Shown here: positions 10,735 through 50,110 of the stretch, piece by piece
Layout: the number at the start of each line of letters is the position of its first letter
How positions within the stretch are numbered: the stretch's first letter is position 1
Source: Nitrospinota bacterium
GTDB taxonomy: Bacteria; Nitrospinota_A; UBA7883; JACRGQ01
Assembly: GCA_029881495.1 (NCBI GenBank)
Contig: JAOUMJ010000005.1
Location: 73,042 to 130,219, forward strand
Direction: 5' to 3'
DNA length: 57,178 nucleotides
Notes under the pieces: model-generated
What the model was told of the DNA's origin: nothing
Seen by the model: the letters and a program-made list of their open reading frames with translations, nothing else
Databases searched by the model: none
Made by a program: the position numbers and the translations under genes

Positions 10735-10757
10735 AGAAGGATCAGTTTTTCCTGATG

Positions 10758-10790
10758 GGGAGCGGCGAAAGCCGCTCCCTTTTTTTTTTT
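10758..10790 (+). terminator. Rho-independent terminator
   Basis: GGGAGCGGC (10758-10766), GAAA tetraloop, GCCGCTCCC (10771-10779) and a run of T. It ends the lipoprotein gene at 9466. Confidence 0.95.
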
Positions 10791-35215: not shown

Positions 35216-35264
35216 TGGTAGTCCCAACGGGAATCGAACCCGTGTTACCGCCGTGAGAGGGCGG
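35216..35264 (-). other. 3' fragment of tRNA-Glu (CTC); element attachment site
   Basis: Minus-strand 49 nt: anticodon arm CCGCC-CTCTCAC-GGCGG (anticodon CTC), variable loop, T arm ACGGG-TTCGATT-CCCGT, acceptor 3' strand and encoded CCA. The D arm and acceptor 5' half are absent and replaced by unrelated AT-rich sequence. This is the displaced end left when an integrase inserts into a tRNA gene; the restored gene should be at the far right end, outside the window. Confidence 0.9.
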
Positions 35265-35299
35265 ATTATATTAATGTAACTGATTGAATACAAAGGGAT

Positions 35300-36456: not shown

Positions 36457-36711
36457 TTATAGCATTCCAACGAGATCTTGCGCTTTCTTTTTTAAATCGG
36501 GTTTTCGCTTGTCTGCAATCCTTTTTGACACTAAAAAATTGTCGAGGTCTTTCATATCGAAAAGAATCTTACATTTTTTACCTTTCCCGTGTCCTGCAAT
36601 CTTTATCGCTGGAATTATAATACCTGCCCAGTCGTACAAAGTGCCGGTCGGAATACCAGTATAGATGGAGGCTTCCTTCACACTGTAGAATCTTTTCGCG
36701 ATTGTGGTCAT
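36457..36711 (-). CDS. Excisionase-like helix-turn-helix protein
   Basis: 84 residues with a MerR/excisionase-type winged helix: YSVKEASIYTGIPTGTLYDWAG...KKCKILFDMKDLDNFL. It sits 47 nt upstream of the integrase on the same strand and probably steers integration versus excision. ATG start without a strong ribosome site. Confidence 0.8.
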   Translation of the reverse strand: MTTIAKRFYSVKEASIYTGIPTGTLYDWAGIIIPAIKIAGHGKGKKCKILFDMKDLDNFLVSKRIADKRKPDLKKKAQDLVGML

Positions 36712-37064
36712 TTTGACAGAGTAGGGAGAATTGAAATGAAATCATTGCAATGAAGGGTAGCATCGTTGAATATTTTATTTTCAAAGATCATTCTGCCCGT
36801 CCTCATTTTGGGACAGGTCCGTAACAGCACCGTAATTAGAGCATAAGAAAATGGTGAGAGCAAGAAATAATTACAGAACTGCTACAGATTTAGATTTGCA
36901 CGAAATTATTGAAAATGATTTGTAACAAGTTGTGTAAAAGAATGCTTCTGGTAGTAGATTGGATTATACGAAGAATAGTGTAAAAAATAATACAGTGTAG
37001 GAATACAAGGAATTATCCGAAGGATAAAAGATATTCATTGGGTCAGTATAAAATATGGAGATTA
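36712..37064. promoter_or_regulatory. Control region upstream of excisionase and integrase
   Basis: 353 bp, AT-rich. Contains an 18-mer shared with the structured RNA region (36812-36829). No larger gene. Expected to carry the integrase operon promoter (minus strand) and that of the 45-residue gene (plus strand). Confidence 0.5.
36812..36829. repeat. 18-bp repeat GACAGGTCCGTAACAGCA (copy 1)
   Basis: Exact copy at 39392-39409 inside the structured RNA region. Any minus-strand leader of the excisionase gene would carry its complement here. Confidence 0.8.
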
Positions 37065-38636: not shown

Positions 38637-38996
38637 CTACTTCAGTTTACCTTTTGGTAAAGAAGATTTTCTAATTTTCAAAGCGAGATCTACGATGGTT
38701 TTTGTGTTGTCGTCGGCATTTCTATAGGTTTCCAGCAGGTTGCGTTCTTCGGTAGTTGCCTGGATAGTTTCCGGGTGTTTGCCAGTCAGAAGGTAGTAGA
38801 TATCGTTTGGCCATTTACTAGCTATTCCAATTATTAACTTTACACCGACATTTGAACCTTTTTCAGCTTCATGAATAGTAGGTCCAGAAACCCCTATTAA
38901 TTCAGCTACTTTACTTTGAGATAGATTAAGATTCTCTCGCCATGCACGTAATCGATGACCAAAACCACTAAAAATAACTAATAAATTATTTGACAT
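38637..38996 (-). CDS. XRE-family transcriptional repressor
   Basis: 119 residues. Helix-turn-helix at 12-66 (GHRLRAWRENLNLSQSKVAELIGVSGPTIHEAEKG) followed by a short dimerising tail. Its start overlaps the -35 box of the rightward promoter at 38990, so it probably controls that promoter and its own gene, as in phage immunity regions. Confidence 0.88.
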   Translation of the reverse strand: MSNNLLVIFSGFGHRLRAWRENLNLSQSKVAELIGVSGPTIHEAEKGSNVGVKLIIGIASKWPNDIYYLLTGKHPETIQATTEERNLLETYRNADDNTKTIVDLALKIRKSSLPKGKLK

Positions 38997-39018
38997 CGAT
39001 AGGAATTCTTAGTAAATA
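38990..39018 (+). promoter_or_regulatory. Sigma-70 promoter for the structured RNA
   Basis: TTGACA (38990-38995), 17-bp spacer, TAAATA (39013-39018). The perfect -35 and ideal spacing point to a start near 39025, just ahead of the first helix. The -35 box overlaps the repressor start codon on the other strand. Confidence 0.7.
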
Positions 39019-39024
39019 TATCCC

Positions 39025-39705
39025 TATGCTGATATGTAGGTCTTGTTTATCAAGAGAAAAAAAGGGAGCTGGGGCGAGTGGATTGCCTGTAGAGACTACG
39101 GGCCTACTTGTCAGCAACGAGAACCCATGGCGGAACACGAGCCCCCTCCTGATTTTTCTGCTGAAAGATATCCCGCAAAAATTCGAGCAATTAATAAGTA
39201 TTCCCTCACTGGATAAGAGCCTTTGCCGAGGCACTTCCGTTAAAAAAGTTATAACAATGGCGGACGTATTACATCCAGTGAGGGATTTTACCACATATTG
39301 CACAGATATGGCGAATATCAATCTGCATTCCGAGTCAGTATTAAAGTCACTAACCGTGAGATCGTTGGCGGGCGGGAACGGAAATGTTAACGACAGGTCC
39401 GTAACAGCAATCCCGTCCGCCGTTATAAAAGGCCTCATGTATCCGGGGGGCATCCTCAAAACCGTACGGATACTTTTTAAGAAATGCGCGGGGGAAATTC
39501 TTAAAACTCGACGTATACCCCCGCGCAAAATTAAGAAAATATTAAATTGGGCAGCGATTGGATCCCTCCCTAAAAAGCTGAAGGCCGTGCCGGGTAACGC
39601 TGGCACGGCATCAGCTGAAAGATCTTTAACAGTTGGACTTATTGAAACACTCTCCTCTCATTACGCAAGGAGACGGGGGTTCTGGATGCCCCCGTCTCCA
39701 CCCCC
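39025..39705 (+). ncRNA. Candidate large structured noncoding RNA
   Basis: About 680 nt with nine strong helices: TCTTG/CAAGA (39041-39055); GCCTGTAG/CTACGGGC (39085-39103); 13-bp stem 39202-39214 with 39273-39285 enclosing GCCT/AGGC; GATAT/ATATC (39305-39319); 11-bp stem 39367-39377 with 39411-39421 enclosing ACGGA/TCCGT; GTATCCG/CGGATAC (39439-39473); TGCGCGGGGG/CCCCCGCGCA (39485-39527); GCCGTGCC/GGCACGGC inside AGCTGA/TCAGCT (39576-39616); GGAGACGGGGG/CCCCCGTCTCC (39669-39699). Two stems contain G-U pairs that would be A-C clashes on the minus strand, so the transcript is plus. Size and density recall phage-borne ornate RNAs (GOLLD, ROOL), but no class is assigned. Frames crossing it show no protein-like sequence. 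Confidence 0.7.
39392..39409. repeat. 18-bp repeat (copy 2), inside the RNA
   Basis: GACAGGTCCGTAACAGCA, same orientation as at 36812. Within the RNA it covers the TCCGT side of the inner stem and the adjoining single-stranded AACAGCA, a place suited to pairing with another RNA. Confidence 0.8.
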
Positions 39706-39824
39706 TTCAAAAGGAAATGGATTGAGTCAGCGGTACCAATACAACTTTTGTATAGGGATGGGCTGTTAAAGGTTAATTACAAAACACTTATGTAATTAGA
39801 AATCGGAATAAAGGTTATCGATGT

Positions 39825-40172
39825 TTGAGAAAGAAAGTCAGTTTAAAGGAAGTAGATGAAGTCATTTCGGAATGCGGGAGAACTATAAAGAAGACCAGGG
39901 ATTTCATAAATGAGATGGAAAAAGAGATGAGCCGAGCGGTCGGCCAGTTTAATAAACCGCATGTTGTATTCAGGGGATTGCGGATATATTTCCCTGAAGA
40001 GATATTAAAAATCAATTCGGTTAATCCAGGTTCAGAGATTGCCAAAAACCAGCTGTTCGAAATATTAAAAAGTCATGCGTTGAAAATTAATCCAGCAAAA
40101 GTAATCAGGTTTTTAACAAGGGGGTCCAATGGGAATCAAAGAAAGGGAAAGTGGAAACGTAAAGTGCATTAG
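39825..40172 (+). CDS. Small phage-like protein, 115 residues
   Basis: Unrecognised. First half is a coiled, charged helix (VDEVISECGRTIKKTRDFINEMEKEMSRAVG); the end is strongly basic (TRGSNGNQRKGKWKRK), which fits nucleic-acid binding. Starts with TTG (start uncertain). First gene after the structured RNA and likely in one rightward transcript with the replication genes. Confidence 0.55.
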   Translation: MRKKVSLKEVDEVISECGRTIKKTRDFINEMEKEMSRAVGQFNKPHVVFRGLRIYFPEEILKINSVNPGSEIAKNQLFEILKSHALKINPAKVIRFLTRGSNGNQRKGKWKRKVH

Positions 40173-40469: not shown

Positions 40470-42251
40470 ATGGTATTACGAATTCGTAGTGTAAAGCCGG
40501 AGTACTTCTTCGACGAGAATTTGGCTGACATGCCTGCGCTTTGCCGGATCTTTTATCTTGGCCTAAAAGGCGCAGCGGACCGGAAGGGGAGGCTGGAAGA
40601 CAGGCCGAGAATGCTTAAGGCAATGATATTGCCATACGATGAAGCGGACGCGGATGAGTTCCTGAAATATTTAAGTGAATACAATAACCGGTTCGGTCAA
40701 CCTTATATAACGAGGTACAAGGTTAACGATACTGGATATATTCAGATAAATAACTTTCTGTCTGAAGAGATCCCGGGGAAATACGAACCATCAAGCCGTA
40801 TACCTTCAATGGAAGGGCTTGTGGAGGAAGTTGTTGATTCTCTCAAAATCGATCAGAACCTGAGACGCGAGATATATGGCCGCGATTCATTTGAATGCAA
40901 GTATTGCGGCCTGGACATGAAGAGCGAACCGCGCAAGATCTGTATTGATCTTGTAATACCGGCAATGAAAAGCGGATCGCTCACAAAGAAGAACATTGTC
41001 ACCTCATGCAAGCGTTGTCATGGGCGCAAGGGTGATCGTACACCTGATGAAGCGGGTATGACCTGGCCGGAAGGTTTCGGCGAAAAGGTAGCCGAAAAGC
41101 GAGTTGACGGGGTCGTGACCCCCGTCAGCGGAACGTCTGACCCCCGTCCGACCCCCGTCAGTAATGGTCAAAATGACGATGCGGACAACGGCTTATCGAA
41201 TATTGTCCAATTAAAGCTAAGTAGCGGAAATAATGATACTTATAATACTGTTAACGGTGTTCAACCCCCCGTTAACCCTACGTTAACCCCCCGTCAAAGG
41301 GGGGTCATGGGGGGTGAGGATACCGTCGTGACCCGTCGTGACGGGGTCGCAAGGGGTCATGACCCCGTTAAAACGTCTGAAAATCAAGGTCAACCAACGG
41401 ATGGCTTAGTTAAATTAATTGATAACGGCACGCAACCCCCTTTAAAGACGGTAACTACTGGAAATAATAGGGGAAACGGGCATAAAGACGAAGGTATTCA
41501 TACTGACTTCCCACCCCCGTTAACGGGGGGTAAACCCCCTGTTAACCCCCCTTTAACAACAGGTCAACGTAGATGTCGCCAACCGTCGGTAGGAAAGGAA
41601 AGGAAAGGAAAGGAGAGGAAAGGACTCTCTCTAAAAGGGGAAAATCATGCGTTAACCGGGATACTTGGGAGTTTTGTTGAAGAGCAGGACGTAAACGTAA
41701 GAGAGAGAAAAATTGCAGTAGGTGGAAGAAGTTATAAAAAGCAGGTTCGTAGCAAGTTTGATTATCAGGAACTGGAATGGTTATCCAAAACAAACCGTGA
41801 TGCAGAGCTGGCGTTAACGTTGGCAAAGCATGTAAAGGAATTCACAAAAGAAGATTTATCCGGGAAAGATTTTTCGATGTGGATCGAGGATATGCGTCAG
41901 ATGCGGGAATCGGAAAACAGAACCCATGAACGTATGCTCGAAGTGATCAATTTTGCGATAAAAGACAGCTTCTGGCGAAAGGTGACGCTTTCGCCGTCGA
42001 GATTGCAGAAGAATTTCACGGAAATAGCAAGTCGACTGGAAGCTGAAAAACAGGATCCAAAAAAAATTGAGGAAACCAAAAATAACAAAGCAGTAGAGAA
42101 AATGAACGAATTAAGAGAAAAGTGCTTAAAAATACATTCAGAAATGGAACCTGGAAAGGATAGGGACTCGTTCAAATTCGATTTTGAAATGAGTTATGAA
42201 AACTGTCAGGGATTAAAAAGAATTCTTGAAGAACATGATAAGGGGACATAG
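40470..42251 (+). CDS. Phage-type replication initiator with embedded HNH domain
   Basis: 593 residues. Residues 1-115 form the winged-helix replisome-organiser domain (RIRSVKPEYFFDENLADMPALCRIFYLGLKGAADRKGRLED...). Next comes an HNH-like module with FECKYCGLDM and SCKRCHGRKGDRTPDEAGM (two CxxC pairs). Then about 200 residues of low-complexity, proline/threonine-rich sequence coded by palindromic DNA, and a C-terminal helical helicase-loader-like part (KEDLSGKDFSMWIEDMRQM...). Known initiators such as lambda O contain their origin in the gene; the repeats fit that. The HNH module in the middle is unusual and could be a nicking activity. Good ribosome site AAAGGGGG. Confidence 0.75.
   Translation: MVLRIRSVKPEYFFDENLADMPALCRIFYLGLKGAADRKGRLEDRPRMLKAMILPYDEADADEFLKYLSEYNNRFGQPYITRYKVNDTGYIQINNFLSEEIPGKYEPSSRIPSMEGLVEEVVDSLKIDQNLRREIYGRDSFECKYCGLDMKSEPRKICIDLVIPAMKSGSLTKKNIVTSCKRCHGRKGDRTPDEAGMTWPEGFGEKVAEKRVDGVVTPVSGTSDPRPTPVSNGQNDDADNGLSNIVQLKLSSGNNDTYNTVNGVQPPVNPTLTPRQRGVMGGEDTVVTRRDGVARGHDPVKTSENQGQPTDGLVKLIDNGTQPPLKTVTTGNNRGNGHKDEGIHTDFPPPLTGGKPPVNPPLTTGQRRCRQPSVGKERKGKERKGLSLKGENHALTGILGSFVEEQDVNVRERKIAVGGRSYKKQVRSKFDYQELEWLSKTNRDAELALTLAKHVKEFTKEDLSGKDFSMWIEDMRQMRESENRTHERMLEVINFAIKDSFWRKVTLSPSRLQKNFTEIASRLEAEKQDPKKIEETKNNKAVEKMNELREKCLKIHSEMEPGKDRDSFKFDFEMSYENCQGLKRILEEHDKGT
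41100..41580. repeat. Palindromic iteron-like array inside the initiator gene
   Basis: Repeated CCCCCGTC / GACGGGG and CCCCGTTAAC-type words, several pairing with each other: GACGGGG with CCCCGTC near 41107-41128, CCCCCCGTCAAAGGGGGG near 41286-41305, ACCCCCGTTAACGGGGGG near 41513-41530. Resembles an origin of replication. A GGAAA pentamer run (41591-41625) follows. Confidence 0.6.
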
Positions 42252-42253
42252 TC

Positions 42254-42769
42254 ATGAATCTAGCGTTGAAAAAAAATTGCAGTAAAGCGATGTGGGATGC
42301 AGCAATCAGCTGGGTTGATGAGCGCCGTTCAATGATTGCGTCCGTATCAAAGAGGTACCAAGTTTATACAGCGTATGACATCGAGGATTACTTAAGTCAG
42401 GCGTATTTAATCGCATACGAAACGCTTATGGAAATCGGCGGGCCGGGAAAGAAGTTTGAGCAGTTCTTCTGGGTCCGCTTCAAGGGACATGCTTTCAAGG
42501 TATCGATGAATCCGATCCCGCCAGAAGAGATAAAGCCTTCGCAGGATATTGACAAAGACGTTATTAAAAAAATGTTGGACATCATGACGCAAAAGGAGCG
42601 TGAAGTCTGGGAGTGTTATCTGGGCGGATCCACGACTAAAGGGCAGGTGGCAGGAGAGCTTGGCAAGAAATCCCAACACAGGGTGAAGATGCTCAAGCGC
42701 CGAGGTTTTCAGCGTGTAGCCAGATCCGCAGAAAGGCGTGAGTTGCTAGAAAGTATTCGTTGTTCATAG
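42254..42769 (+). CDS. Sigma-factor-like regulatory protein
   Basis: 171 residues with a region-2-like helix (YDIEDYLSQAYLIAYETLM) and a region-4-like helix-turn-helix (MTQKEREVWECYLGGSTTKGQVAGELGKKSQHRVKMLKRRG). Probably directs transcription of element genes, as in phage sigma-like regulators. Starts 3 nt after the initiator stop. Confidence 0.7.
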   Translation: MNLALKKNCSKAMWDAAISWVDERRSMIASVSKRYQVYTAYDIEDYLSQAYLIAYETLMEIGGPGKKFEQFFWVRFKGHAFKVSMNPIPPEEIKPSQDIDKDVIKKMLDIMTQKEREVWECYLGGSTTKGQVAGELGKKSQHRVKMLKRRGFQRVARSAERRELLESIRCS

Positions 42770-46094: not shown

Positions 46095-46161
46095 CATTTA
46101 CTTCAACCGTGCCGACCATGGTTTTACCGGCATTGCCGATCAGACAGAGGTTGCGGCATGA
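46087..46161 (+). pseudogene. 24-residue frame coupled to hamA
   Basis: ATG at 46087 overlaps the preceding stop, and its own stop overlaps the hamA start by 4 nt (ATGA). It may be the tail of a lost upstream gene, kept because it couples translation of hamA. Confidence 0.35.
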
Positions 46162-46952
46162 CAGAGCCTGCCCTTGCTACCGTCAGCTACGAAAGCCAGA
46201 ACGGACAAGTGTCCTGGCGCGGCGTAAGCATGGTGGACGGCAACGGCTTCAACACATTTATGACCAACGATGTCGCATCACGGCTTCACGACACAGAAGG
46301 CCACGCCGAATTTGAAGCGCATCTGCGGGGATTGGCCAATACCGGATTCGCTCGCGACAGCCTCAACGCCATTCTAGCGGCCGAAGTCCCTGAAGAACGA
46401 GACTGGGCAGTCGGCGAAGCCATGGCGGAAGCCTACCTGAGTCACGAACATGAAATCACTTGGCCCTGGAACATGGAGCGCGATAAGCGAAATCCCAAAG
46501 CAAGCCTTCAAGGAGCCGATCTAGTCGGATTTGAGATCGACGGCGACAATGCGCGCCTTGCGCTTGGGGAAGTCAAGACATCTACCGATGCAAACACACC
46601 ACCCGGAGTAATGAACGGCAGGAGTGGCATGACCCACCAGATTGACAATCTGGCGAATAACCTATCCCTGATTTGTCAACTGCTCAAATGGCTCTTGCCC
46701 CGTTGCAAAGGCACGACACACGAGACATCCTTCAATACGGCAGTAGGGCTTTTCTTGAATTCTGGAAACAAGGCGATTTCACTCTTTGGGGTTCTAATCC
46801 GGGACACGCAGCCGAATGATCTGGATTTGAAGGCACGGGGTGAAACCCTGACATCAGTACTGCAAGCTCCGACGACGTGCCGTTTGATAGCAATATACCT
46901 GCCATGCCCCATTTCTGACCTTCCTTCTCGCGTAGCGGGAGGTGAGTCATGA
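46158..46952 (+). CDS. hamA: Hachiman defence nuclease HamA (DUF1837)
   Basis: 264 residues with the DUF1837 plan: a helical N-terminus and a PD-(D/E)xK-like core GADLVGFEIDGDNARLALGEVKTS, with Asp near 121, Glu 138 and Lys 140 as catalytic candidates. In characterised Hachiman systems HamA is a nuclease held inactive by the HamB helicase and released on phage infection to degrade DNA. Stop overlaps hamB start by 4 nt (ATGA), so the pair is coupled. Base composition is richer in GC than the surrounding element. Confidence 0.88.
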   Translation: MTEPALATVSYESQNGQVSWRGVSMVDGNGFNTFMTNDVASRLHDTEGHAEFEAHLRGLANTGFARDSLNAILAAEVPEERDWAVGEAMAEAYLSHEHEITWPWNMERDKRNPKASLQGADLVGFEIDGDNARLALGEVKTSTDANTPPGVMNGRSGMTHQIDNLANNLSLICQLLKWLLPRCKGTTHETSFNTAVGLFLNSGNKAISLFGVLIRDTQPNDLDLKARGETLTSVLQAPTTCRLIAIYLPCPISDLPSRVAGGES

Positions 46953-49900
46953 GCCATTGGCTGTTTGACAACTTGGCCAGCACACGCCAGGAAGCCCTAA
47001 AACAGGCCGGACGTGCGCAACTGTTTCAAGAGCTGCTCAACGTGCCGTCCGTGGTGGATCACGAACTGATCCGGCGTACCGCCGAGGCGTTGGAGATGGT
47101 TGTTCTCGATCTTGTCATGGAAGATATTTCCGACAACGAAGAGAAACAGAAAGAGTTGAAGCTCGCCGCCGCCGACGCATTCCGATTGCTTCGCGCCCTG
47201 CCGCCGCCGAAAGAATCGCTCGACGCAGGAATGTTTCTATTGCGCGCCGGAACTCTCGCCGTGTTGGGTGACAAAGGTTCTGACGCCGCACGGTGGATGA
47301 GAGAGACGCCTTGGCCCGATCTTCCGATAGATTCGGAAGACTGGAGCAAACGCACCTGGGCGACGGTCATAGACATCTGGCTACGCCTCATTCGCAAACA
47401 TGGGTGGTCGGACCGCGACGCGGTATTGGAGCGAATTGCCCGCTTGCGTAGGGCTCAATCTGATTTTGAACAAACCCATCTCCAAGGACGGGAACCTGCT
47501 CATGCAAAGGCGACCGCCTTGGAATTGATCGGGCTTTACCACTTGGCTAAGGCGGCTGAGATTTTCGCTCACTACATAACCGATGGTGTAGTGGATAAGA
47601 AATACCAAATCCACCAATTGCTTGAGACGCATTTTGACCGTGTTATGGCCGTCTGCAAGCATGCGCAGATGATCGACCTGGAACCACTGAGTCGGCTTCT
47701 TGCAGCAAGTGCTTCGCAAATGGCGGAAAACTCGATCTGGAACGTTACGCGAGCGGTCAACTCTCGTGTCACGCAGTTCGTGCGCAACCTTGTTGATCGA
47801 GGCCGGGGCGACCGAGCCATTTTCGACGTACTCCCACCGCAGCGTCGGACCTTGGCGGAAAAGGGCCTCCTTGGCTCAAGTCGCCGAGCCGTCGTTGTCA
47901 GCTTGCCCACCTCCAGCGGAAAGACGCTAATAGCCGAATTTCGATTGCTACAGGCCCTGAACCAATTCGACCATGAGCGCGGCTGGGTAGCTTATTTGGC
48001 TCCGACACGAACATTGGTGAATCAAATCGCGCGGCAACTTCGCCGAGACTTGGAACCACTCAACATTATCGTTGAGCAGGTCAGCCCCGCACTTGAAATA
48101 GACAACATTGAAGCGGAGCTACTGCATCAACGCGATCAGGCTAATGCCTTTCGGGTCCTGGTTACAACCCCCGAAAAGTTGGACCTCATGCTTCGCCAAG
48201 GCTGGGAGGCCGAAATAGGTCGCCCGTTGACCCTGGTGATTGTCGATGAGGCGCACAATATTCAAAGTGTGCGGCGAGGACTGAAACTGGAACTTTTGCT
48301 CGCTACGATCAACAGCGAGTGCCAGCGCGCGCAATTTCTACTGCTTACCCCGTTTATCGACAATGCGCGTGAAGTCGCACGCTGGCTGGGAGGGCAGAAT
48401 TCCGAGGACATCAGCCTGGCCCTTGATTGGCAACCCAATGACCGGGTAATTGGAATTATCCAGGCTGAACAGGGTGACGCAATCAACGGCCACAGTTACG
48501 ACTACCAGCTTCGCATGGAGACTGTTCACACTACGCGGCAGACTCTGGTTGTGGATGAGTTACTTGTGCTTCCTAAAAACGCAAGCATTGCGTCCACTTA
48601 CAGAATGGTCTCCAATCAAGGTTCGTTGGCGGCCGTTGCTGCACAAAAGCTACAGGAGCGCGGACCTGTAATTGTTATGCATCAAAGACCAGATTGGGTG
48701 TGGGCTCTTGCCAAGAAGCTCAAGATCGAAACGAACCGAAAGGCACCGACGCAAAAGATTGAGTTGGTCCAGGAATTCCTCAGATTGGAATTTGGCTCCG
48801 ATTTCCCCCTAGTTGATTTGATTGCTTATGGCGTTGGTGTTCATCATGCTGGACTCTCCGATGAAGTACGGGCGCTCATGGAATGGTTGTTTGAGGAAGA
48901 GGAGCTCCGCTTTCTTGTCGCAACAACAACAATAGCGCAAGGTGTTAATTTCCCGGTCTCAGGCGTTGTGATGGCTTCGCATCAGTATCCCTATGGCGAA
49001 GATATGCCGCCCGAAGACTTCTGGAATATCGCGGGACGAGCCGGTCGTATTTCGCAAGGAAGCCTTGGGGTTGTCGCATTAGTGGCGGGCGATCCGTCAA
49101 AGGCAGATGCACTCCGGGGATTCGTCCAAAAGCAATCGGGCGAACTAAACTCAGCACTCATCTCATTGGCACGGGAAGCAGGTGAAAAATTAGGTGATCT
49201 CGGGGCGATTGTTTACAGCGATCCAGAATGGTCAACCTTTGTTCAGTATTTGGCGCACACTTATCGGCAAATGGGGCAGCCGGAAGGGTTCTCGGATGAG
49301 ATTGAACAGGTGCTTCGGAATACGTTCGGCTTTGAAAAATTACGCTCCGAGTCTCCCGCGCTGGCCAATCGCCTTTTGGAAGGCATTCATGCCTACACGC
49401 TATATCTTCAAGAACCGGGCCAGCCGATCAAGCTGGTAGACAGTACGGGATTTTCGCTTCAGAGTATCCGAACTGTTCTGGGTGCAGCGGGCCAGGCAGG
49501 TATCGAATCGGGTACGTGGAATGCGGATTCTCTTTTTAGCCAAGGGAACAGCGACCTACAAGCCATGATGGGTGTGTTACTACGAGTCCCTGAACTGCGA
49601 GAGAATCTGGAGGCGGTAACAGGCGGCCATGCACCTGACAGTGACAAACTGGCGTTAATCGTCAAAGAATGGGTAAATGGTGCGTCGGTGCCTGATATTG
49701 CGAGCCGTTACTTTATGGGGGACGACGGCGACGTGATGCAGGCGATGACAAAGTGTGGTAAGAATTTGTTTGGTCGGTTAACGCAAACCGCAGCATGGGG
49801 GCTTGGAGCCTTACTTTCGATCACAGGCGGCAGACTTTCCGAAAAGGAGATGAGCACGCTTAGAAACCTTCCATCATGGGTTTATTACGGCGTCAATTCC

Positions 49901-50110
49901 GACAAAGCCATCGCCCTTCGCTTGCTCGGTATACCCAGAACGGCGGCGGTGCGACTTGCGGGAAGCATGGGGGACTTTCTTGGCGGACCGATCACTAATG
50001 TAAGAAGCCGTCTACGTGAGATGGACGAAGCAGCGTGGCGAAAGGCGCTCGGTGAGAGCGAGGGAGGAATCTATCGAGAAGTATGGCGCGTGCTGGAAGG
50101 GTTAGAGTAG
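46949..50110 (+). CDS. hamB: Hachiman helicase HamB (Ski2-like SF2)
   Basis: 1053 residues. Walker A PTSSGKTLIAEF (about 320), DEAH box VIVDEAHNI (about 431), GVGVHHAGLSDEVRALMEWLFEEEELRFLVATTTIAQGVNFP (C-terminal RecA motifs, about 630-670) and FWNIAGRAGR. These give a Ski2/HEL308-like DExH helicase with a long helical C-terminal extension, as in HamB/AbpB. It senses aberrant DNA and holds HamA. Full length, no frameshift seen. Confidence 0.9.
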   Translation: MSHWLFDNLASTRQEALKQAGRAQLFQELLNVPSVVDHELIRRTAEALEMVVLDLVMEDISDNEEKQKELKLAAADAFRLLRALPPPKESLDAGMFLLRAGTLAVLGDKGSDAARWMRETPWPDLPIDSEDWSKRTWATVIDIWLRLIRKHGWSDRDAVLERIARLRRAQSDFEQTHLQGREPAHAKATALELIGLYHLAKAAEIFAHYITDGVVDKKYQIHQLLETHFDRVMAVCKHAQMIDLEPLSRLLAASASQMAENSIWNVTRAVNSRVTQFVRNLVDRGRGDRAIFDVLPPQRRTLAEKGLLGSSRRAVVVSLPTSSGKTLIAEFRLLQALNQFDHERGWVAYLAPTRTLVNQIARQLRRDLEPLNIIVEQVSPALEIDNIEAELLHQRDQANAFRVLVTTPEKLDLMLRQGWEAEIGRPLTLVIVDEAHNIQSVRRGLKLELLLATINSECQRAQFLLLTPFIDNAREVARWLGGQNSEDISLALDWQPNDRVIGIIQAEQGDAINGHSYDYQLRMETVHTTRQTLVVDELLVLPKNASIASTYRMVSNQGSLAAVAAQKLQERGPVIVMHQRPDWVWALAKKLKIETNRKAPTQKIELVQEFLRLEFGSDFPLVDLIAYGVGVHHAGLSDEVRALMEWLFEEEELRFLVATTTIAQGVNFPVSGVVMASHQYPYGEDMPPEDFWNIAGRAGRISQGSLGVVALVAGDPSKADALRGFVQKQSGELNSALISLAREAGEKLGDLGAIVYSDPEWSTFVQYLAHTYRQMGQPEGFSDEIEQVLRNTFGFEKLRSESPALANRLLEGIHAYTLYLQEPGQPIKLVDSTGFSLQSIRTVLGAAGQAGIESGTWNADSLFSQGNSDLQAMMGVLLRVPELRENLEAVTGGHAPDSDKLALIVKEWVNGASVPDIASRYFMGDDGDVMQAMTKCGKNLFGRLTQTAAWGLGALLSITGGRLSEKEMSTLRNLPSWVYYGVNSDKAIALRLLGIPRTAAVRLAGSMGDFLGGPITNVRSRLREMDEAAWRKALGESEGGIYREVWRVLEGLE

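Follow-up and report, generated by a model that had tools for sequence, protein, structure and literature searches.

To our knowledge, large ornate RNAs are few, and the best known of them, ROOL and GOLLD, are RNAs of phages and prophages whose functions are unknown. They often lie near tRNA islands, have many helices and pseudoknots, and form homo-oligomeric cages. ROOL measures 659 nt and GOLLD over 800 nt in the phages and prophages where they are found (PMC12286853). P4, a satellite phage, has an immunity RNA, CI, that is processed to a small stable form. Premature termination silences the P4 replication genes when this RNA, cut from the untranslated leader, pairs with the upstream seqA and the downstream seqC (PMC4825925). 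The C4 antisense RNA (RF01695) and the prophage RNA IsrK also come from phage control regions and pair with leaders. IsrK makes the ribosome-binding site of orf45 accessible, and the ribosomes of orf45 then continue into anrP (PMC4825925). RNAs that pair with the leaders of other genes of their own element have precedents in P1, P7, N15, P4 and PLE (PMC7567579). An RNA of the PLE satellites has antisense homology to the leaders of PLE genes, and phage ICP1 has an ORF-less transcript of about 800 nt (PMC7567579).

Here we describe a region of an integrative conjugative element that resembles these systems in part. The window, i.e., the whole stretch of 57,178 nt that was analysed, is the end of a contig in a metagenome-type assembly (2.8 Mb, 72 contigs). 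Single-sequence tests support well the prediction of a large plus-strand structured RNA adjoining an XRE repressor. Our main reading, to which we give a probability of roughly 40%, is that this RNA of about 790 nt would be the leader of the replication operon and probably also serves as a regulatory RNA, either after processing or in its leader form. If this is true, a comparably elaborate RNA stands at the repressor/replication switch of a conjugative element, and a candidate antisense site for the excisionase transcript makes its function directly testable. The rival readings (ALTERNATIVES), which we weighted singly, are a stand-alone RNA like ROOL or GOLLD, a coding gene with a structured mRNA, an element that acts as DNA and an antisense target of the plasmid type.

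The structured region lies between a divergent repressor and a replication operon

Profile matches and gene order place the conjugative element between about 35.2 kb of the window and the contig end. Its minus strand carries, in this order, a tRNA-like sequence with the integrase, an excisionase-like gene (xis), a 195-aa protein, a Sel1-repeat protein and the XRE repressor. The plus-strand genes that follow the structured region encode 115-aa and 87-aa proteins, a 593-aa replication protein, a sigma-like protein and DUF5131; further downstream are two PAPS-reductase proteins, a two-gene Hachiman-like defence system, ParM, and DsbC-, TraE- and TraK-like proteins. The structured region fills the interval between the divergent repressor and the replication operon (Table 1). 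In the replication protein the HNH domain sits between the initiator-like and DnaD-like parts, and no full-length relative of this protein was found in plasmids, phages or the scanned genomes. The defence genes (46158-50110), a PDC-M23A/PDC-M23B candidate, are similar to HamA/HamB of Hachiman, and their helicase matches the PDC-M23B model with an E-value of 0.

The transfer system is related to those of Desulfosarcina, Geobacter and Pelobacter plasmids, in which we found no homologous control region. On one Desulfosarcina plasmid (NZ_CP087953.1, record 78385-81380) the genes are arranged in a comparable way, with a large HTH protein, a sigma factor and a divergent regulator. This likeness comes without sequence similarity, and the divergent gap of the plasmid, no longer than about 110 nt, contains no RNA of this kind.

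Table 1. Positions in the window of the structured region, its helices and the neighbouring genes
Feature	Position	Strand	Basis
Excisionase-like gene (xis)	36457..36711	-	weak excisionase domain match, adjoins integrase
Site matching the 18-mer, directly behind -10 TCTAAT, where the xis transcript is predicted to begin	36812..36829	-	BLAST, promoter score 7.5
XRE-type repressor gene, divergent from the RNA	38637..38996	-	Pfam HTH_3, HTH_31 above cut-off
Candidate promoter TTGACA-17-TAAATA (overlaps the start codon of the repressor; transcription predicted from near 39025)	38990..39018	+	sequence, score 8.3
Open frame from TTG 38990 or ATG 39026, probably not a gene	38990..39769	+	shuffles, codon models, composition, AlphaFold2
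Structured RNA or operon leader, ~780-790 nt	39025..39816	+	folding z, stem counts, fold
5' domain with two crossing helices	39027..39160	+	fold, stem search, forced energies
Helix, 13 WC + 2 GU	39027-42/39101-116	+	strand-symmetric stem search
Helix	39063-70/39140-47	+	strand-symmetric stem search
Helix	39085-92/39096-103	+	strand-symmetric stem search
Helix closing its own domain (39202..39285), 13 bp perfect	39202-14/39273-85	+	stem search
Domain with GGCGGGCGGGA/TCCCGTCCGCC helix and apical hairpin	39355..39439	+	pair probability 0.97-1.0, two main helices
Helix, 10 + 1 GU	39367-77/39411-21	+	strand-symmetric stem search
18-mer GACAGGTCCGTAACAGCA, perfect antisense to the predicted xis mRNA 5' end; AACAGCA predicted unpaired	39392..39409	+	BLAST, fold
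Helix	39439-45/39467-73	+	strand-symmetric stem search
P4-like module: hairpin 39485-39527 and complementary flanks	39475..39537	+	complementarity search, local shuffles
Helix, 10 bp perfect	39485-94/39518-27	+	strand-symmetric stem search
Strong hairpin, -25.1 kcal/mol; on the minus strand 39616-39571 is directly followed by TTTTT, terminator-like	39576..39616		fold
Nested helices, the first within the second	39584-93/39600-09 and 39576-81/39611-16	+	strand-symmetric stem search
Hairpin, 11 bp perfect, no plus-strand T run	39669-79/39689-99	+	stem search, fold
3' arm, paired with 39320-39333 and overlying the AAGG ribosome-binding site of the 115-aa protein gene	39803..39816	+	pair probabilities 0.74-0.77
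115-aa basic protein (pI 10.4), first gene after the RNA, family unassigned	39825..40172	+	profile searches, translation
593-aa replication protein: phage initiator-like N-terminus, HNH, DnaD-like C-terminus	40470..42251	+	profile matches
171-aa sigma-factor-like protein	42254..42769	+	profile matches

The plus strand folds far beyond chance

We compared the folding energy of the region with that of shuffled sequences. Over 39025-39816 the z-score was -10.3 for the plus and -6.0 for the minus strand (40 shuffles), and over 39025-39720 it was -10.4 and -4.1, respectively. Twelve control stretches of the window, folded on both strands against 8 shuffles each, gave values from +1.1 to -5.8. The energy gain over shuffles was 29% in the region versus at most 12% in the control stretches. 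The region has five perfect stems of at least 9 bp, against a mean of 0.57 and a maximum of 2 in 60 shuffles, and is the 800-nt tile of the window that is richest in perfect stems. A strand-symmetric stem search recovered all nine helices described in the initial annotation of this DNA, and the elaborate fold claimed there is larger than it was described to be: the end that it placed at 39705 does not hold, since the helices 39621-34/39761-74 (14 pairs), 39775-81/39791-97 and 39320-33/39803-16 reach the start of the next gene. In the predicted fold, the first of these and the last, which is a long-range helix, close the 3' half of the RNA on the ribosome-binding site of that gene.

Both strands fold better than chance, and the plus strand is clearly preferred in energy. 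The polarity of the RNA had initially been derived from irregular pairs; in the strand-symmetric search GU pairs exceed AC mismatches by 6 to 2, which is only suggestive, and the z-score of the plus strand argues better for it. In the 5' domain the helix 39027-42/39101-116 crosses the next long one (39063-75/39140-150, or 39055-75/39141-59 as the helix that ends in a T run), with forced energies of -40.7 and -50.3 kcal/mol. The two helices may therefore form a pseudoknot or be alternatives, as in a switch.

An operon leader or a stand-alone RNA

The candidate promoter upstream of the region had been taken for a consensus one. Its TTGACA is perfect and a promoter is plausible, but TAAATA matches TATAAT at 3/6 positions and lacks the final T, and a scan for consensus promoters did not call it. 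Its score compares with a 90th percentile of 7.4 and a 99th of 9.6 among local best scores. Control by the XRE repressor, which was also part of the first description, is plausible only from the geometry. At the 3' end of the RNA we found no plus-strand terminator, and between the candidate promoter and 39825 no better plus-strand promoter. Because the helices are also unbroken, the downstream genes are probably read through the RNA, which would make it, provided that the transcript is continuous, probably the leader of the replication operon.

The main competitor is a stand-alone large ornate RNA of an undescribed class which, like ROOL and GOLLD, would be abundant and self-assembling and would not act as a leader. 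We regard it as unlikely, albeit worth serious consideration. The RNA shares with ROOL and GOLLD the length class (600-850 nt), the many helices (nine or more), a probable pseudoknot (two crossing helices here) and the setting in a mobile element, and its size and helix density match theirs (PMC12286853); the adjoining gene for a basic 115-aa protein also fits. However, the leader position in a conjugative element differs from that of a phage tRNA island, since the only tRNA-like remnant (35219-35281, beside the integrase) is about 3.8 kb away, and instead of ending at a terminator of its own the structure continues into the ribosome-binding site of the next gene.

The search for known classes also bears on this comparison. 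The covariance-model search against Rfam suggested in the initial annotation (4227 models, applied to the window at the gathering threshold and to 38900-39850 at E up to 10) matched no family. The kinship with ROOL and GOLLD proposed there is not supported: neither model matches meaningfully even at the permissive threshold, the position differs too, and the comparison is a resemblance only. The C4 antisense RNA was rejected for the same lack of a match, as was the HEARO / IscB omega RNA, considered for the HNH domain, whose protein is initiator-like with a DnaD-like end.

Homologues were found neither by sequence, nor by a covariance model of one domain, nor through the neighbouring proteins, which also counts against the leader reading. 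Searches with blastn gave none in plasmids and phages or in 145 and then 385 genomes, in which twelve matches of 23-42 nt are scattered over the query and look like chance. The covariance model of 39485-39616 found nothing in the 385 genomes; two scans of about 85,000 species returned only HNH domains of unrelated genes; and viral scans gave nothing with the proteins, and with the 18-mers none and then one chance match lacking the hairpin. With one sequence known, this failure fits an undescribed class, and there is a sizeable chance that the RNA is a mobile-element control RNA in a class of its own.

Complementarities to the flanks and to the excisionase leader

The leader reading draws on two complementarities. 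In the first, the 9-mer TTCTTAAAA (39498-39506), which is part of a 23-nt hairpin loop, is complementary to 39475-39483 (9/9) and to 39531-39537 (7/7). Local shuffles give this double complementarity a joint probability of 4e-4, a post hoc value obtained after several hairpins had been inspected. The same kind of search recovers the known arrangement in the P4 genome (8651-8644, 8464-8456, 8384-8376). The locus may be like P4 in that one segment could pair with an upstream and a downstream site and in that, judging from gene order and annotation, a putative untranslated leader would precede the replication genes of a mobile element. In contrast with P4, the complementarity is AT-rich and lies near its hairpin, there is a protein repressor as well, searches of phage records gave no homologue, and the RNA is much larger and more folded: the P4 leader reaches z-scores of only -2.6 to -4.1 by the same test. 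The pairing, which is short as well as AT-rich, and the weaker folding of the P4 leader both speak against our reading.

In the second, 39392-39409 is identical to 36812-36829; read on the minus strand, the latter would by prediction form the first 18 nt of the transcript for the excisionase. The promoter predicted there (TTGCTC-17-TCTAAT) scores 7.5, above the 90th percentile. This match is the only one within the element longer than 12 nt (BLAST E 0.003 in the window), yet an equally long exact match arises by chance elsewhere in the genome, and the 18-mer could instead be a shared protein-binding site or a recombination footprint. The AACAGCA of the RNA, predicted to be unpaired, would meet the 5' terminal bases of the xis mRNA. 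Duplex energies of the RNA with the gene leaders were not discriminating.

A small ORF closely follows the predicted xis site, and its stop overlaps the start codon of xis; this recalls IsrK, although C4 and IsrK RNAs are far smaller and the RNA here has no Rfam match. The ORF comprises 51 codons (36708-36863, minus strand; overlap ATGA), or 32 codons from an internal ATG near 36805, and the overlap suggests translational coupling of xis to it. The locus also resembles ICP1 and the PLE satellites in its putative long transcript and an antisense match to a predicted gene leader, but those are different elements, and BLAST against phage records gave no match to the RNA.

Taken together, the position, the P4-like hairpin and the xis antisense match suggest an RNA switch that ties excision to replication, in which every step beyond the sequence itself (transcription, processing, pairing in the cell and direction of control) is one that we infer. 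Transcription would start from the promoter embedded in the divergent XRE control region, and in the quiescent element the repressor would keep the RNA low. Read-through transcripts would fold compactly and, as a leader, hold down expression of the operon behind them, both by pairing of the loop 39498-39506 with its two flanks, as in P4 immunity, and by the covered ribosome-binding site at 39803-39816. Through 39392-39409 the same RNA could also pair in trans with the start of the excisionase mRNA, which would couple excision to replication. As far as a single sequence allows, the RNA probably contributes to the timing of the element's replication and of its departure from the chromosome. The bolder claim, that it represents an undescribed class of large ornate RNA in conjugative elements and, by acting on the replication operon in cis and on the excisionase mRNA in trans, links replication and excision through a single RNA, is speculative and we think it doubtful.

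The open frame through the RNA

A stop-free frame that the first description overlooked spans the whole region (38990-39769, 250 codons, or 247 from ATG 39026). This is an anomaly that a purely non-coding RNA leaves unexplained, also under the leader reading: its length is reached in 0/5000 dinucleotide shuffles and 0/20000 structure-preserving permutations. The region could accordingly be a protein gene of 247 codons, leaderless from ATG 39026, with an mRNA structured by chance or by selection for both coding and structure. The ATG coincides with the predicted start of transcription, 55 nt separate the stop codon from the next gene, codon modelling based on host genes detects a weak bias (p 0.04-0.07), and the near-repeat GGILKTVRI/GEILKTRRI differs partly at synonymous sites.

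We nonetheless hold a protein gene to be improbable, as neither codon usage nor composition looks like that of a gene. When the codon model is trained on the genes of the element itself, no frame is preferred, and D+E make up 5.7% of the translation versus 9.7-15.7% in element proteins and 7.5% in shuffles. The predicted protein has no family in PHROGs and no homologue in about 85,000 genome species or in viral contigs. AlphaFold2, run on the single sequence, gives it a mean pLDDT of 32 with no residue above 50, compared with 42 for a real element protein folded without an alignment. Furthermore, permutations preserving both the putative protein and its codon usage fold less stably than the actual sequence (z -5.8, 0/60 as stable). 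Since such synonymous-codon permutation destroys the structure, the protein does not explain it, and the helices would be left unaccounted for. The structure is a firmer fact than coding by this frame. The minus strand is also stop-free from 38986 to 39606, because TA is rare at codon positions 1-2 of the plus frame.

Readings at the DNA level and on the minus strand

The palindromes could instead act in DNA and fold as RNA only incidentally; they might bind proteins or serve as an origin, an oriT or a single-strand promoter. The beyond-chance folding of the minus strand, the recurrence of the 18-mer upstream of xis and the adjoining replication operon are all consistent with this, but the plus strand is preferred in energy and in GU over AC pairs, the stems are mutually dissimilar and not repeated sites, and a better origin candidate lies inside the replication gene, so that we judge this reading quite improbable. 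That candidate (41100-41660, in the linker part of the gene) has many GTTAACCCCCC/GTTAACGGGGGG repeats and inverted repeats and folds well. Its arrangement looks like an origin inside an initiator gene, as in lambda O, where the origin is placed within the initiator gene. The least probable reading, a plasmid-type replication-control leader regulated by a minus-strand antisense RNA ending at 39616-39571, has its main hint in the terminator-like hairpin there, along with the downstream replication gene and a weak minus-strand ctRNA match (E 0.15, far below the cut-off), but no convincing minus-strand promoter was found in 39620-39830, where the best score (5.5) is near the median of random tiles.

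Elsewhere in the window, at 10755-10790, there is a textbook terminator (GGGAGCGGCGAAAGCCGCTCCC) followed by at least 10 T, with a second, partial copy 57 nt on.
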